DNA from: Arthrobacter sp. zg-Y1110
GTDB taxonomy: Bacteria; Actinomycetota; Actinomycetes; Actinomycetales; Micrococcaceae
Direction of reading: 5' to 3'
DNA: 64,000 bases
NCBI RefSeq assembly: GCF_025244865.1
Contig: NZ_CP104272.1
Span: forward strand, 1,550,001 to 1,614,000
Part shown: positions 13,781 through 19,914 of the stretch, one piece after another
Numbering within the stretch: position 1 is the stretch's first letter
Layout: every line of letters begins with the position of its first letter
Position numbers and translations under genes: made by a program
The notes under the pieces: model-generated
The model's database searches: none
What the model saw: only the letters and a program-made list of their open reading frames with translations
What the model was told of the DNA's origin: nothing

Positions 13781-15034
13781 ATGAAGACCAACGTGCTGGA
13801 CGAGGCGCGCCGCGTCTCAGTTCAGCGGCGTACCCTCGCCGTGGTTGTCCTCAGCCAGATTCTCGGCGGGGCGGGACTGGCCGCAGGTGTCACGGTGGGG
13901 GCACTTCTGGCTCAGGACATGCTTGGATCGGAGGGGTTGGCCGGTCTGCCGGCGGGGCTGATCACACTGGGCTCCGCACTGGCTGCCTACCTCGTAGGAA
14001 GGGTTACCCAGCGGGCCGGACGGCGCATTGGACTCGGAGCCGGTTTCCTGACCGGCGGCCTCGGTGCCCTGGGCGTGGTCCTGGCTGCCGTGGTGGACAA
14101 CCCCCTTCTGCTGTTTGCGGCCCTGTTCCTTTATGGGGCGGGAACGGCCACCAATTTGCAGGCCAGATATGCCGGAACGGACCTGGCGCTGCCGGACCGC
14201 AGGGGACAGGCCATCAGCATTGCGATGGTCTCGACGACGTTCGGGGCGGTTGCCGGACCCAATTTGGTGACGCCCATGGGCCGCTTCGCCGAGGACCTCG
14301 GTATCCCTGCCCTGGCCGGCCCCTTCCTCCTTGCCGGAGCAGCGTTCCTGGCCGCCGGCGTCGTCCTGCTGGTACTTTTGCGCCCGGATCCGTTTTTCCT
14401 GGCACGCCGGTTGGAGGACCGGACGGCGGACACCGTGCCGGGCGACGTCGGTGCGCCGGCAGCCCGGCCGGGGGTCGGAGTCTACGTGGGTGCCGCCGTG
14501 ATGGTGCTGACCCAGATCGCGATGGTGGCGATCATGACCATGACGCCGGTGCATATGCGGGCCCATCACCATGACCTTGCCGCGGTCGGGATGGTCATCG
14601 GGGTGCACATCGGCGCGATGTATCTGCCGTCGCTTGTCACGGGTGTCTTGGTGGACAAACTCGGACGTACTCCAATGGCTATCGCCTCCGGGGTCACCCT
14701 GCTCTTGGCCGGAGTCACTGCGGCCCTCGCGCCGGGTGGATCCCTGGGCCTGCTGCTCCTCGCCCTGGCACTGCTCGGCATGGGCTGGAACTTCGGCCTG
14801 ATTGCCGGCACGGCACTGGTAGTCGATAACACGTCGCCGGAGATCCGTCCCCGCGTCCAAGGCAAGATCGACGTGCTGGTTGCCTTGGCCGGGGCCGGTG
14901 GGGGAACCCTGTCCGGTGTGGTTATGGCCGGCACCAGCTACGCCGTACTTGCCCTCTCGGGCGGCATCCTGGCCTTGCTGCTGATCCCGGTGCTGTTTTG
15001 GGCCCGGCGCAGCAAGGCAGTGGAAAGGTACTAG
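13781..15034 (+). CDS. MFS transporter, 12 helices
   Basis: 417 residues with twelve predicted helices and the conserved loop after helix 2 as GRVTQRAGRRIGLG (MFS motif A-like). A longer cytosolic loop near residues 195-220 separates the two halves. The start was set at MKTNVLDEARR because GGGGG lies directly before it and the extra upstream residues do not look like protein. Divergent from the membrane/PadR pair. Substrate unknown; the drug-efflux branch is plausible. Confidence 0.85.
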   Translation: MKTNVLDEARRVSVQRRTLAVVVLSQILGGAGLAAGVTVGALLAQDMLGSEGLAGLPAGLITLGSALAAYLVGRVTQRAGRRIGLGAGFLTGGLGALGVVLAAVVDNPLLLFAALFLYGAGTATNLQARYAGTDLALPDRRGQAISIAMVSTTFGAVAGPNLVTPMGRFAEDLGIPALAGPFLLAGAAFLAAGVVLLVLLRPDPFFLARRLEDRTADTVPGDVGAPAARPGVGVYVGAAVMVLTQIAMVAIMTMTPVHMRAHHHDLAAVGMVIGVHIGAMYLPSLVTGVLVDKLGRTPMAIASGVTLLLAGVTAALAPGGSLGLLLLALALLGMGWNFGLIAGTALVVDNTSPEIRPRVQGKIDVLVALAGAGGGTLSGVVMAGTSYAVLALSGGILALLLIPVLFWARRSKAVERY

Positions 15035-15098: not shown

Positions 15099-15641
15099 TT
15101 AGTCGGTTCCGGCGGAACCGCTGCGCCGTTCCAGGAACAGGGTGTCCCGCCATTCACCGGCGTGCGGTCCGTGGCCCATTTTCGCCACGCGCTGGCGCCT
15201 GCCAACCACGCGGAAGCCCGCTGCCTGGTGCAGGGCGAGGCTGGCCATGTTCTCCGGAAAGATACTGCACTGAAGCGTCCAGATTCCCGAGGTCTCCGCG
15301 GACGCCACCAAGGCACGCAGCAGAAGCCTTCCGATGCCGCGTCCTCGGGCGGCGGGGGCGATGTAAACAGAATGTTCGACGACGCCGCGATAGGCATCCC
15401 GGGTGGAAACGGGTGAGGCCGCTGCCCATCCCAGGATGCCGCTTCCTGTGTCGGCGACAAGCCGGAGTCCGGCCAGATGGGCGGAATCAAAGGCTTCCCA
15501 TTCGGGTACCGCGCTCTCGAAGGTGGCCTGCCCGGTGGCAATCCCCGCCGCGTAGATGCTGCGCACCGCGGGCCAGTCCGAAGCCAGCAGGGGCCGGACG
15601 AGTACCGCGCCTTCCGGCACAGCGGCAGGTGTGCTGCTCAC
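15099..15641 (-). CDS. arsN1: ArsN1-type N-acetyltransferase
   Basis: 180 residues, GNAT fold. The order VRPLLASDWPAVRSIYAAGI, then ATGQATFESAVPEW, HSVYIAPAARGRGIGRLLL and NMASLALHQAAGF matches the phosphinothricin/arsinothricin acetyltransferase family (PAT, Bar, ArsN1). It would acetylate the arsenic antibiotic arsinothricin or a glutamate analogue. The GTG start overlaps the arsR stop by 4 nt, so it is translated with the arsenic repressor; that context favours ArsN1 over a herbicide-type PAT. A generic GNAT role cannot be excluded. Confidence 0.8.
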   Translation of the reverse strand: MSSTPAAVPEGAVLVRPLLASDWPAVRSIYAAGIATGQATFESAVPEWEAFDSAHLAGLRLVADTGSGILGWAAASPVSTRDAYRGVVEHSVYIAPAARGRGIGRLLLRALVASAETSGIWTLQCSIFPENMASLALHQAAGFRVVGRRQRVAKMGHGPHAGEWRDTLFLERRSGSAGTD

Positions 15642-15988
15642 CGGGGAGAGAGGACCGCGGCCGCCCGCTCCAGCGCACCCGGCACGATGGAGTAGTAGGC
15701 CCAGACGCCGCGCTTCTCGCGGTGCAGGATGCCGGCGTCGACCAGGATCTTCAGGTGGTGGGACACCGTCGGCTGCCCGAGGCCGATCGGTTCGGTGAGG
15801 TCGCACACGCACGCTTCTTTGTTCTCCTGGGCAGCGATCAGTGAGACCAGGCGCAGGCGGGTCGGCTCGGCCACGGCCTTGAGCAGCTGGGCGAACCGCT
15901 GGGCGTCTTCGATGCTCAGCGCTTCGGAGGTCAGCGGGGTGCAGCAGGCCTCGACGGCGGGAGCGGGAACTGTCAGTGCAGAGGTCAC
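15638..15988 (-). CDS. arsR: Arsenic-responsive ArsR repressor
   Basis: 116 residues. The winged-helix core runs from RFAQLLKAVAEPTRLRLVSL to QPTVSHHLKILVDAGIL. Cysteine pair Cys15-Cys16 (EACCTP) in the N-terminal arm plus Cys60 and Cys62 (ACVCDL) gives an As(III) site like that of Corynebacterium glutamicum ArsR, which uses an N-terminal Cys pair. The ATG at 15996 runs into a stop, so the GTG at 15988 is the start. It should repress the divergent acr3 operon and its own operon through the palindromes at 16015-16062. Confidence 0.92.
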   Translation of the reverse strand: MTSALTVPAPAVEACCTPLTSEALSIEDAQRFAQLLKAVAEPTRLRLVSLIAAQENKEACVCDLTEPIGLGQPTVSHHLKILVDAGILHREKRGVWAYYSIVPGALERAAAVLSPR

Positions 15989-16101: not shown

Positions 16102-17226
16102 GTGAGCACGTCCACCGCACCACCCCAGGCCGGCCAGGTCACTGCCCGGCTCTCCACCCTGGACCGCTTCCTGCCGCTCTGGATCCTCGCCGCGATGGCT
16201 GCCGGGCTGCTGCTGGGCCGGCTGGTTCCGGGCATTGGTCCCGCACTGGACTCGGTGAAGGTGTCGAATGTGTCGCTGCCCATCGCCGTCGGACTGCTGG
16301 TGATGATGTATCCGGTGCTGGCCAAGGTCCGGTACGACGAAACCTCGCGGGTGATTGCCGACCGGAAACTGATGGTCACCTCACTGGTGCTCAACTGGGT
16401 CGCCGCTCCGGCATTTATGTTCGCCCTGGCCTGGATCTTCCTGCCCGATCTGCCCGAATACCGCACCGGGCTGATCATCGTGGGGCTGGCCCGCTGCATC
16501 GCCATGGTGATGATCTGGAACGACCTGGCCTGCGGTGACCGCGAAGCCGCCGCCGTGCTGGTCGCCATCAACTCCGTCTTCCAGGTTTTGGCCTTCGGCG
16601 CGCTGGGCTGGTTCTACCTGCAGGTCCTGCCCGGCTGGCTCGGCCTGGAAACCACCAGCGCCGGGTTCTCCTTCTGGGCCATCACGGTAAGCGTGCTGGT
16701 TTTCCTGGGCATCCCGTTGCTGGCCGGCTTCCTCACCCGCACCCTTGGCGAAAAGGCGAAGGGCCGTGACTGGTACGAGGCCACGTTCCTGCCGAAGCTT
16801 GGCCCTTGGGCGCTCTACGGCCTGCTGTTCACCATCGTGCTGCTGTTCGCCCTGCAGGGGGATGAAATCACCTCGAACCCGCTCGACGTCGCCCGCATCG
16901 CCCTGCCACTGCTGGTCTACTTCCTCGTGGTGTTCGGCGCCGGCATGCTGCTGGGCAAACTGCTGGACCTGGGTTACGCCCGCACCACCACGCTGGCCTT
17001 CACCGCCGCCGGGAACAACTTCGAACTCGCCATCGCCGTGGCGATCGGCACCTACGGCGTGACCTCCGGACAGGCGCTGGCCGGCGTCGTCGGCCCCCTG
17101 ATCGAAGTGCCCGTTCTGGTCGCCCTGGTCTACGTGGCCCTTTGGACGCAGAAGAAATACTGGCCCGCCGCCACCACTGCCCTTGCTCCCTCTCCAAACG
17201 CTTCCACAGAAAAGACGAACCGATGA
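16102..17226 (+). CDS. acr3: Acr3 arsenite efflux transporter
   Basis: 374 residues, about ten membrane helices. Family blocks include PIAVGLLVMMYPVLAKVRYD and LARCIAMVMIWNDLACGD, the latter carrying the conserved Cys of the Acr3 transport site, and TAAGNNFELAIAVAIG. It exports As(III) using the proton motive force. The start is the GTG at 16102 with GAGGAG 5 nt before it; the frame extends upstream without a better start. Its TGA overlaps the arsC ATG by 4 nt. Confidence 0.95.
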   Translation: MSTSTAPPQAGQVTARLSTLDRFLPLWILAAMAAGLLLGRLVPGIGPALDSVKVSNVSLPIAVGLLVMMYPVLAKVRYDETSRVIADRKLMVTSLVLNWVAAPAFMFALAWIFLPDLPEYRTGLIIVGLARCIAMVMIWNDLACGDREAAAVLVAINSVFQVLAFGALGWFYLQVLPGWLGLETTSAGFSFWAITVSVLVFLGIPLLAGFLTRTLGEKAKGRDWYEATFLPKLGPWALYGLLFTIVLLFALQGDEITSNPLDVARIALPLLVYFLVVFGAGMLLGKLLDLGYARTTTLAFTAAGNNFELAIAVAIGTYGVTSGQALAGVVGPLIEVPVLVALVYVALWTQKKYWPAATTALAPSPNASTEKTNR

Positions 17227-17639
17227 GCACCGAAACCGCCGCCAAGCCCTCCGTCCTGTTCGTCTGCGTGCACAACGCCGGACGGTCGCAGATGGCCGCC
17301 GCGTACCTGCGACACCTCGGCGAGGGACGGATCGAAGTCCGCTCCGCCGGATCCGCGCCCGCCGACTCGGTCAATCCCGCCGCCGTTGAAGCCATGGCCG
17401 AAGAGGGCATCGACATGTCCGCCGAGCTGCCGAAGGTGCTGACCACCGAGGCCGTGAAGGAGTCCGACGTCGTAATCACCATGGGCTGCGGCGACGCCTG
17501 CCCGATCTTCCCCGGCAAGCGCTACGAGGACTGGAAACTCGACGACCCCGCAGGCCAAGGCGTCGACGCCGTCCGCCCCATCCGCGACGACATCAAGACC
17601 CGGATCACCGCACTCATCGCCGACCTCCTGCCGGCATAG
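17223..17639 (+). CDS. arsC: Arsenate reductase, low-molecular-weight phosphatase type
   Basis: 138 residues. The P-loop CVHNAGR (Cys15 to Arg21) is followed by Cys89 and Cys93 (GCGDACP) and the acid DDP near 107-109, as in LMW-phosphatase-like arsenate reductases. It reduces As(V) to As(III) for export by Acr3. In actinobacteria this group can use mycothiol/mycoredoxin or thioredoxin; the second pair of cysteines would allow the thioredoxin-type relay. Coupled to acr3 by ATGA. Confidence 0.93.
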   Translation: MSTETAAKPSVLFVCVHNAGRSQMAAAYLRHLGEGRIEVRSAGSAPADSVNPAAVEAMAEEGIDMSAELPKVLTTEAVKESDVVITMGCGDACPIFPGKRYEDWKLDDPAGQGVDAVRPIRDDIKTRITALIADLLPA

Positions 17640-17672: not shown

Positions 17673-19178
17673 ATGAACACTGATCTGTCCCAGCTTCCCG
17701 TCGCCGTCATCGGCTCCGGTCCCGTGGGCCTGGCTGCCGCCGCGCACCTGCTCGAACGCGGACTGACGCCGGTCATCTTCGAATCCGGCGACGCGCCTGC
17801 CGCGGCCGTCCGCGCCTGGGGACACATCCGGCTGTTCTCGCCGTGGCAGTACGACGTCGACGCCGCCGCGCGCCGCCTGCTCGCCGACACCGGCTGGCAG
17901 GAACCGGACGCCGAAACCCTGCCGACCGGTGCGGAACTTCTCGAGCAGTACCTGCAGCCGCTGGTTGCCGTCCCCGCCATCCGGAACGCCCTGCACACGA
18001 ACAGCGAGGTTGTTGCCGTCAGCCGGGAAGGCCTAGACAAGACCCGCACCGGCGGACGGGATACCACTCCGTTCCTGGTCCGCGTCCGGACCGCCGACGG
18101 CACAACCGCCGATCACCGGGTCCGCGCCGTCATCGACGCGTCCGGCACCTCGAACTCCCCGAACCCGCTGGGCTCGGCCGGACTTGCAGCACCGGGGGAG
18201 TCCGCCGCCTATGCAGAGGGCTTCATCACCGCTCCGCTGCCGGATGTCACCGGCCGGGCCCGCGACCGGTTCGCCGGCAAGCACATCCTGGTGGTCGGCG
18301 CAGGCCATTCGGCGGCCAACACGCTGCTGGCACTGGGGGAGCTGGCCGAGCAGGAACCGGAAACCCGGATCAGCTGGGCCATCCGCCGGTCTTCGGCGGC
18401 AAGCGTGTACGGCGGCGGCGATCTGGACGGACTGCCGGCCCGCGGCGCGCTGGGCAGCCGCCTGCGGACCCTGGTCGAGGAAGGCCGCATCGAACTGCAC
18501 ACCTCGTTCACCATCACCGGCTTCAAGAGCGCCGACACCTTGACCGTCGTCGGGAGCACGCCGTGCGGGGAATCGCAGTTGGACGTCGACCTGCTGGTTC
18601 CGGCCACCGGCTTCCGGCCGAACCTGGAGATGCTGCGCGAAATCCGGCTGGATCTCGATCCCGCCGTGGAAGCACCGCGGGCGCTCGGGCCGCTCATTGA
18701 CCCGGAATTCCACAGCTGCGGCACCGTGACGCCGCACGGCGCCCGGCTGCTGTCCCACCCCGAGAAGGACTTCTACATCACCGGAATGAAGTCCTACGGC
18801 CGGGCCCCGACGTTCCTGATGGCCACCGGGTATGAGCAGGTCCGTTCCATTGCCGCGGCCCTTGCGGGGGACCAGAAGGCCGCCGACGACGTCGAACTCG
18901 TCCTGCCAGAAACCGGGGTCTGCTCCACGGACCTGGGCGGCAGCTGCGATACGGTGGCCGGCTGCGATACGGATGCCGCTGCTGCGCCTGCCGCTGAGTC
19001 TTGCTGCGGGACACCGGAGCCGGCTGCTGCGGCGCCTGCCGCTGAGTCTTGCTGCGGGACACCGGAGCCGGCTGCTGCGGCGCCTGCCGCTGAGTCCTGC
19101 TGCTCGGCGCCGGAACCGGCGTTCCTGGGTATTCCTACCGGTCTGGAACACGGCCGCTCCGGGGAACAGGGGAACTAG
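17673..19178 (+). CDS. FAD/NAD(P)-dependent oxidoreductase of the ars operon with vicinal-cysteine repeat tail
   Basis: 501 residues. Residues 1-410 are a two-dinucleotide-fold flavoprotein: VAVIGSGPVGLAAAAHLLE binds FAD and HILVVGAGHSAANTLLAL (about 207-224) binds NAD(P)H, with ATGFRPN near 312. The overall plan is that of flavin monooxygenases and ArsO-type proteins. The last 87 residues hold nine cysteines: single ones at 417, 425 and 431, then CC pairs at 444-445, 460-461 and 476-477 in three 16-residue repeats. Dithiols bind As(III), and ArsR here has the same CCTP-like motif, so a metalloid-binding tail is a fair inference. GAGGA precedes the ATG, 33 nt after arsC. Confidence 0.85.
   Translation: MNTDLSQLPVAVIGSGPVGLAAAAHLLERGLTPVIFESGDAPAAAVRAWGHIRLFSPWQYDVDAAARRLLADTGWQEPDAETLPTGAELLEQYLQPLVAVPAIRNALHTNSEVVAVSREGLDKTRTGGRDTTPFLVRVRTADGTTADHRVRAVIDASGTSNSPNPLGSAGLAAPGESAAYAEGFITAPLPDVTGRARDRFAGKHILVVGAGHSAANTLLALGELAEQEPETRISWAIRRSSAASVYGGGDLDGLPARGALGSRLRTLVEEGRIELHTSFTITGFKSADTLTVVGSTPCGESQLDVDLLVPATGFRPNLEMLREIRLDLDPAVEAPRALGPLIDPEFHSCGTVTPHGARLLSHPEKDFYITGMKSYGRAPTFLMATGYEQVRSIAAALAGDQKAADDVELVLPETGVCSTDLGGSCDTVAGCDTDAAAAPAAESCCGTPEPAAAAPAAESCCGTPEPAAAAPAAESCCSAPEPAFLGIPTGLEHGRSGEQGN
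18975..19118 (+). repeat. Three tandem 48-bp repeats encoding AAAAPAAESCCGTPEP
   Basis: Units at 18975-19022, 19023-19070 and 19071-19118. The first two differ by few bases; the third ends SCCSAPEP. They sit inside the C-terminal coding region of the ars flavoprotein and keep frame. High DNA identity suggests recent duplication or slippage. Confidence 0.9.
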
Positions 19179-19234: not shown

Positions 19235-19591
19235 ATGAACAACACCGCAAAAGGGTGGCTGCTCCTGGTTGCCGCCATCCTGGCCGAAGTGACTGCGTCG
19301 CTCTCGCTCAAGGGTGCGCTGGAGCATGCCGGTCTCTATGCCGTGGTTGCGGCCGGCTATCTTGGCTCCTTCATCCTGCTCGCCGGCGTGCTGCGCGCCG
19401 GCATGGCCTTGGGTGTGGCTTACGGCGTCTGGGGTGCAAGCGGTGTCGCCCTGACCGCTATCGGCTCCCTGGTCTTCTTCGGAGAACCGCTCACCCTGCT
19501 GATGGGCATTGGTATTGCCGTTGTCATCGCCGGGGTGCTCTGCGTTGAACTCGGGTCCCAAGCGGCACATGAGAAAGCCGAAACGGCGTAA
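19235..19591 (+). CDS. Small multidrug resistance (SMR) transporter, subunit 1
   Basis: 118 residues, four helices. The first helix has the essential glutamate in VAAILAEVTASLSLKGA (Glu18), and GVAYGVWGASGVALTAI matches the central SMR motif. Proton-coupled exporters of cationic drugs or guanidinium compounds. Its TAA overlaps the next ATG (TAATG), and two unequal SMR genes in tandem usually form a heterodimer such as EbrAB or YkkCD. 56 nt after the ars flavoprotein; GAAGGAA precedes the ATG. Confidence 0.9.
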   Translation: MNNTAKGWLLLVAAILAEVTASLSLKGALEHAGLYAVVAAGYLGSFILLAGVLRAGMALGVAYGVWGASGVALTAIGSLVFFGEPLTLLMGIGIAVVIAGVLCVELGSQAAHEKAETA

Positions 19592-19914
19592 TGGCCTACC
19601 TGTTCCTGATCGGCGCGATCCTCTTCGAGGTGGCGGGCACCGTCTGCCTCCGCCTCGCCGTCGACGACAAGCGCTGGTACGCCGGAGTCGCCGTCGGCTA
19701 CGTGGTGGCGTTCGGCATGCTCACTCTCACCCTCGCCAACGGCCTGCCGTTGGGTGTCGCCTACGGGATCTGGGCTGCAGCGGGCGTCGCCCTGACTGCG
19801 GTCATCGGCAGGGTCTTATTCAAGGAGCCCTTCACCTGGCTGATGGGCGTGGGAATAGTCCTTATTGCCGGCGGCGTCCTGCTCATCGAGCTGGGCGCCG
19901 TGAACGGCACGTGA
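19591..19914 (+). CDS. SMR transporter, subunit 2
   Basis: 107 residues, four helices, with the conserved Glu in LIGAILFEVAGTVCLRLA (Glu13) and LGVAYGIWAAAGVALTAV. Predicted partner of the preceding SMR protein. Its 3' end overlaps the convergent SGNH hydrolase gene by 32 nt. Confidence 0.9.
   Translation: MAYLFLIGAILFEVAGTVCLRLAVDDKRWYAGVAVGYVVAFGMLTLTLANGLPLGVAYGIWAAAGVALTAVIGRVLFKEPFTWLMGVGIVLIAGGVLLIELGAVNGT

Follow-up and report, generated by a model that had tools for sequence, protein, structure and literature searches.

The 64,000-nucleotide stretch of Arthrobacter sp. zg-Y1110 analysed here (contig NZ_CP104272.1, positions 1,550,001 to 1,614,000; hereafter the window) carries in an arsenic-resistance (ars) cluster a gene for a flavoprotein that ends in a cysteine-rich tail with vicinal cysteine (CC) pairs. 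As judged from related sequences, the tail is old and family-wide and the 16-residue array of the window is a recent, lineage-specific expansion. The gene and its parts are the following.

17673 to 19178, plus strand: flavoprotein of 501 amino acids (ATG start), with a two-Rossmann core for flavin adenine dinucleotide (FAD) and NAD(P)H followed by the cysteine tail; putatively ArsV-like
18717 to 18719, plus strand: codon of core Cys349, in the motif IDPxxH[S/T]C (H[S/T]C in 168 of 168 family members)
18915 to 19175, plus strand: cysteine tail, residues 415-501, from GVC (Cys417, codon 18921-18923), with the motif LPx[TS]G[VIA]C and, in residues 423-501, a low predicted local distance difference test score (pLDDT)
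18975 to 19118, plus strand: three 48-bp tandem repeats, each with one CC module (CC codons 19002-19007, 19050-19055 and 19098-19103)

Nine cysteines lie in the 87 residues 415-501 compared with two in residues 1-405 (Fisher p = 4.8e-6), and the CC pairs at 444/445, 460/461 and 476/477 follow each other with a period of exactly 16 residues. This array is not due to chance, and the tail is as the preliminary description of the locus had reported it. Copies 2 and 3 of the 48-bp repeat are 96% and 83% identical to copy 1 (Tandem Repeats Finder score 238), and an 18-bp duplication is found at 18943-18978. The exact period of the window reads as the result of tandem duplication, a recent event in a tail that is itself old. 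In an AlphaFold2 model (93 sequences) the core is well folded, and residues 423-501 have a pLDDT below 50; the arm from residue 423 is presumably disordered. In the same way, the C-terminal residues 421-430 of L211, a short-tailed protein of 430 amino acids, were modelled with a pLDDT below 50. Selenocysteine was considered and rejected, the apparent internal stops in many relatives being ordinary stops that end the tail.

The family set comprised 168 members: 80 named loci, 29 same-genus loci (window included), 52 other actinobacterial loci and 7 plasmid records. For the named loci, mostly from Proteobacteria, 590 candidate stretches were ranked by similarity to the Ensifer protein and the best 80 taken. 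The other actinobacterial loci consist of 46 from an order search, in which 63 of 198 genomes matched (61 outside the genus, of which the 46 used were mostly the higher-scoring), and 6 from a phylum search with matches in 25 of 396 genomes. L001, a duplicate of the window, was dropped and L228-L230 were not counted. L078 and L095, which reach a contig end and whose tails are perhaps incomplete, were kept, as was L204, whose tail is frameshifted.

The tail motif LPx[TS]G[VIA]C is present in all 168 members. The cysteine of the GVC block was conserved in 121 of 121 proteins (120 close homologs and the window), and the motif was found in 239 of 240 database homologs among the matches listed, the remaining one reading GLC. 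That such a tail might be singular is therefore not supported. At least one CC pair follows the motif in 161 of 168 members, and proteobacterial tails roughly follow the pattern GVC...GCCGGPAP...ACC...GCGC. Two longer members, P0172 and P0198, have a tail whose cysteine-rich CC portion is present twice.

The flavoprotein gene was found in all 29 same-genus genomes searched, one of which also carries a second copy broken over two frames (G400:C11:301755-303193). The number of CC pairs at these 29 loci is one in 3 (frameshifted L204 included), two in 9, three in 11 and four in 6, with spacings between 11 and 43 residues; the pairs recur while their number and the length of the linkers vary. Among the 28 other same-genus loci, only L202 and L203 have at least three pairs spaced by 16 residues throughout, and L195, with two pairs, has 16 as its one spacing. 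Mapped on the core tree, CC number requires 11 parsimony changes (minimum possible 3; many forks are weak). Shuffled assignments required 15.0 on average and were as low in 3 of 200 cases, some clustering, which indicates that CC number is partly inherited. Outside the genus, a single pair is found in 37 of the 52 other actinobacterial members, and at least two pairs with differing linkers in 71 of the 80 named loci.

The two-dinucleotide-binding fold of the window protein is backed by Pfam, AlphaFold2 and a fold search. The N-terminal GxGxxG and the GxGxSA of the second Rossmann domain are each found in 167 of 168 members, and the window protein has both. An alignment of 100 sequences contains 49 invariant positions, 44 of them before residue 406. 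The motif around Cys349 reads HSCG in 164 members, HTCG in 2, HSCS in 1 and HSCC in 1, and Cys349 is the sole core cysteine in 93 of 168. The core motifs CxxC, CxxxxC and GxGPCG were each found in 0 of 168. Fold search placed the flavoprotein near YpdA and small flavin monooxygenases, and no sequence relatives were found in the PDB at 1e-5.

The surrounding cluster of the window contains the following genes.

17223 to 17639, plus strand: arsC, arsenate reductase of the low-molecular-weight-phosphatase type (LMWPc 86.7 bits against a cut-off of 23.2; TIGR02689 99.5 bits, under its cut-off of 157.6)
16102 to 17226, plus strand: acr3 arsenite exporter, GTG start assumed (TIGR00832 424.9 bits against 282.8)
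15638 to 15988, minus strand: divergent repressor of the ArsR/SmtB type, start uncertain, the open reading frame extending to 16123 (NF033788 91.2 bits against 55)
15102 to 15635, minus strand: ArsN1-like GNAT acetyltransferase, start uncertain (NF040503 118.9 bits, under its cut-off of 170)
13781 to 15034, plus strand: MFS transporter, start assumed (MFS_1 91.6 bits against 33.4); in the NCBIfam scan it did not match ArsK

Since the acr3 stop and the arsC start overlap as ATGA (17223-17226) and the flavoprotein starts 33 bp past the arsC stop (17639), the three genes likely form a single operon, and the position after acr3-arsC given earlier is correct. The 3.9-Mb genome contains one acr3 match above cut-off and one flavoprotein match. 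Directly 3' of the flavoprotein, two SMR family transporter genes stand in tandem (19235-19591 and 19591-19914).

Neighbours were counted across the family as tblastn matches to 30 reference proteins within 6 kb; "ArsR" denotes any match at 1e-6 to four ArsR references, so that some may be other regulators of the ArsR/SmtB type. With ArsR and ArsO counted, 158 of 168 loci have an ars-type gene, and 115 have one of the specific kinds (efflux pump, ArsC, ArsN, ArsI, ArsA/D or AioA). In the genus, ArsC is directly upstream at 26 of 29 loci and Acr3 is present at 29 of 29. At the 80 named loci, the gene immediately before the flavoprotein is ArsR in 57 cases and the one immediately after it is an MFS transporter in 50; ArsC is within 6 kb in 32 and Acr3 in 20.

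Nothing ars-type was matched within 6 kb at 4 of the 80 named loci; in two of these, the gene just upstream encodes a PadR-type regulator that has vicinal cysteines. By eye, PadR-type regulators with a CCSPT pair lie about 300-380 bp upstream of the flavoprotein at L083, L095, L101 and L103, and one with CCSPA lies directly upstream at L079 (7469-7933). It is possible that such regulators are an alternative arsenic sensor to ArsR. The tailed member of L101 (7938-9434) lies in a record of 616 kb under the title Candidatus Nesciobacter abundans chromosome, where no ars-type neighbour was found besides the PadR-like gene. A scan for other CC-tailed open reading frames near the family (87 rows) returned mostly wrong-frame noise, the plausible cases by eye being ArsR, ArsI and PadR-type proteins. 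For instance, Streptomyces-like proteins of ArsI type by eye adjoin the flavoprotein at two loci (L218, 7348-7827; L219, 7357-7866) and also end in CC modules. Similar CC tails may thus recur in unrelated ars proteins.

The nearest tailless relatives, at about 32-42% identity, end roughly 20 residues or less past the Rossmann core, and CC is absent from all 10 with a readable C-terminus (L243, whose C-terminus is cut off, was left out of this count). The stretches around the 11 tailless-group loci, 7 to 15 kb long and in some cases, such as L227, extending less than 6 kb on one side, gave no match to any of the 30 reference proteins at 1e-4. This suggests that the tail goes with the ars context, in a comparison where all controls are distant Actinobacteria and taxonomy is not separated from the tail and ars trait. 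Nine of the 10 tailless relatives have a cysteine in exact alignment with Cys349 and in the tenth, L242, it is one residue off, so that Cys349 looks ancestral. Together with the family-wide tail cysteine and the frequent ars neighbours, the tailless group lends support to the arsenic link and to the capturing tail of the preliminary description. An arsenic-binding tail is accordingly plausible on comparative evidence, and better grounded than before.

ArsV is a methylarsenite and antimonite monooxygenase encoded in the order arsR-arsV-arsK/arsW, and this flavin monooxygenase is reportedly known from Ensifer adhaerens ST2 and Paracoccus sp. SY. The gene of the window fairly probably encodes an actinobacterial, ArsV-like and FAD/NADPH-dependent oxidase (monooxygenase) that detoxifies trivalent (organo)arsenicals, with a disordered tail to capture the metalloid and hand it over; activity, substrate, binding and hand-over are all points that we infer. 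The proposed mechanism starts from what can be observed, namely the arm, its conservation, its absence from the related non-ars group, the operon and the predicted fold, and is drawn from this anatomy, the gene context and known ArsV biochemistry. NADPH would reduce the flavin, which with O2 would then yield a (hydro)peroxyflavin. The tail, with Cys417 and one or more CC pairs in Ala/Pro/Glu/Ser linkers, would chelate the thiol-seeking metalloid and carry it to the flavin pocket, where the invariant Cys349 may take part. Oxidation would convert the tail-held trivalent arsenical or antimonite to its less toxic pentavalent state, which would then be exported, and the three 16-residue repeats may add binding sites. 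The likeliest substrate would be methylarsenite, antimonite or some other trivalent organoarsenical; plain arsenite is less likely, because the adjoining arsC would reduce oxidised arsenite again in a futile cycle. A stronger version, in which the tail is an obligatory capture arm throughout the family, the monooxygenase acts on arsenic held by the arm (from Cys417 and the CC pairs to Cys349 and the flavin, a MerA-like relay put to oxidation) and Arthrobacter tunes capacity by duplication and loss of CC modules, appears rather doubtful.

Several observations weigh against an ArsV-like oxidase with a capturing tail. The top fold match is a disulfide reductase and not a monooxygenase, and FxGxxxHxxx[YFW], the fingerprint of class B flavin monooxygenases, was found in 0 of 168 members. 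The AlphaFold2 models gave no sign of tail docking, that of short-tailed L211 included. Seven of the 168 members, all actinobacterial, have no CC pair past the motif, which implies that the pairs are not indispensable, and the same-genus tail of L204 (genome G417) is out of frame past its first CC pair, through true loss or a sequencing error. No ars-type match was found within 6 kb at 10 of 168 loci, some on cut contigs; these are at most the cases of the same tail away from ars genes, which the preliminary description had taken as telling against its idea. In addition, the gene lies with acr3-arsC and not with ArsK or ArsW in Arthrobacter, and the ArsR of the window is divergent. The identification of the family with the already described ArsV is probable, and is made from gene context and from what is known of ArsV.

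The YpdA-like fold is also what would be expected if the protein were a thiol-disulfide reductase, in which FAD and NADPH reduce a disulfide between Cys349 and the tail, and the tail dithiols in turn reduce ArsC or an arsenic-thiol adduct in place of thioredoxin or mycoredoxin. In the same direction, P0104 (610 amino acids) has an ArsC (LMWPc) domain fused N-terminally to the flavoprotein, in the order of the operon. However, the redox motifs CxxC, CxxxxC and GxGPCG are absent from every core and Cys349 is often its sole cysteine (93 of 168), and the presence of ArsC at only 32 of 80 named loci means that it is not an obligate partner, so that this role seems unlikely. Still less probable is that the tail serves as an arsenite buffer or chaperone that supplies Acr3 with As(III), in the way that ArsD supplies ArsA, with a flavin core that merely keeps its thiols reduced. 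The constant presence of Acr3 in the genus, the CC repeats as possible metalloid sites and the disorder of the arm would suit it; nevertheless, Acr3 is near only 20 of 80 named loci, and the conservation of the core exceeds what a passive anchor would need.

Another alternative concerns the repeat only and is compatible with the ArsV-like oxidase: the array would be neutral, a product of in-frame slippage of a GC-rich 48-bp unit, with Cys417 and one CC pair doing the work. The near identity of the window copies, the 11 parsimony changes within the genus and the single pair of 37 of 52 other actinobacterial members are in line with it. On the other hand, two or more pairs with different linkers in 71 of 80 named loci suggest that extra sites are useful, and few shuffled assignments were as clustered on the tree as the observed CC numbers. 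Neutrality of the array is thus a serious possibility, if one that we lean away from.

An invariant cysteine in the core and another in the disordered arm give this widespread arsenic-linked family of flavoenzymes a specific part that can be tested. The chemistry of the family is not easily assigned to either disulfide reductases or monooxygenases. In addition, species with one to four CC modules form a natural series in which to ask whether metalloid handling rises with the number of thiol pairs.

Among known systems, ArsO (NF040505) is likewise an NAD(P)H flavoprotein of ars clusters, and was rejected at 44.8 bits against a cut-off of 425; Streptomyces FR-008 has ArsO, ArsT and the tailed flavoprotein, the last encoded separately from ArsO. 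ArsT/thioredoxin reductase was rejected on the missing core redox CxxC and on 22 against 343.45 bits for TIGR01292. The same applies to the bacillithiol disulfide reductase YpdA/Bdr (TIGR04018, 36.7 against 339.9 bits), whose conserved cysteine lies in the absent GxGPCG and from which the window protein also differs by its extra tail. The mercuric reductase MerA has a core CxxxxC next to FAD, lacking in all 168 members, and a different chemistry is expected; its flexible C-terminal vicinal cysteines that supply metal to the flavin site are alike in idea. A literature search for the cysteine tail gave nothing relevant, which does not make the tail undescribed, the primary ArsV reports lying outside that search. 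Closest is ArsV itself. In Proteobacteria arsR, flavoprotein and MFS exporter are a common order, which is also that of ArsV. The tailed flavoproteins of E. adhaerens E-60 and M8 sit between arsR and arsK, and the LPETGVC...CC tail is found in the E. adhaerens members too. A three-gene set of arsR, tailed flavoprotein and MFS transporter is also found on a Paracoccaceae plasmid. Against the ArsK cut-off of 400, the MFS neighbour scores 513 bits in Ensifer, where it is ArsK, and 219.7 in Paracoccaceae, below it. According to published accounts, ArsV oxidises methylarsenite, and ArsW is the extruder of methylarsenate. As the family is probably the described ArsV, a new kind of enzyme is unlikely; the window protein, set apart by its 16-residue repeat array, is probably a lineage-specific variant of a widespread enzyme family that already has a name.
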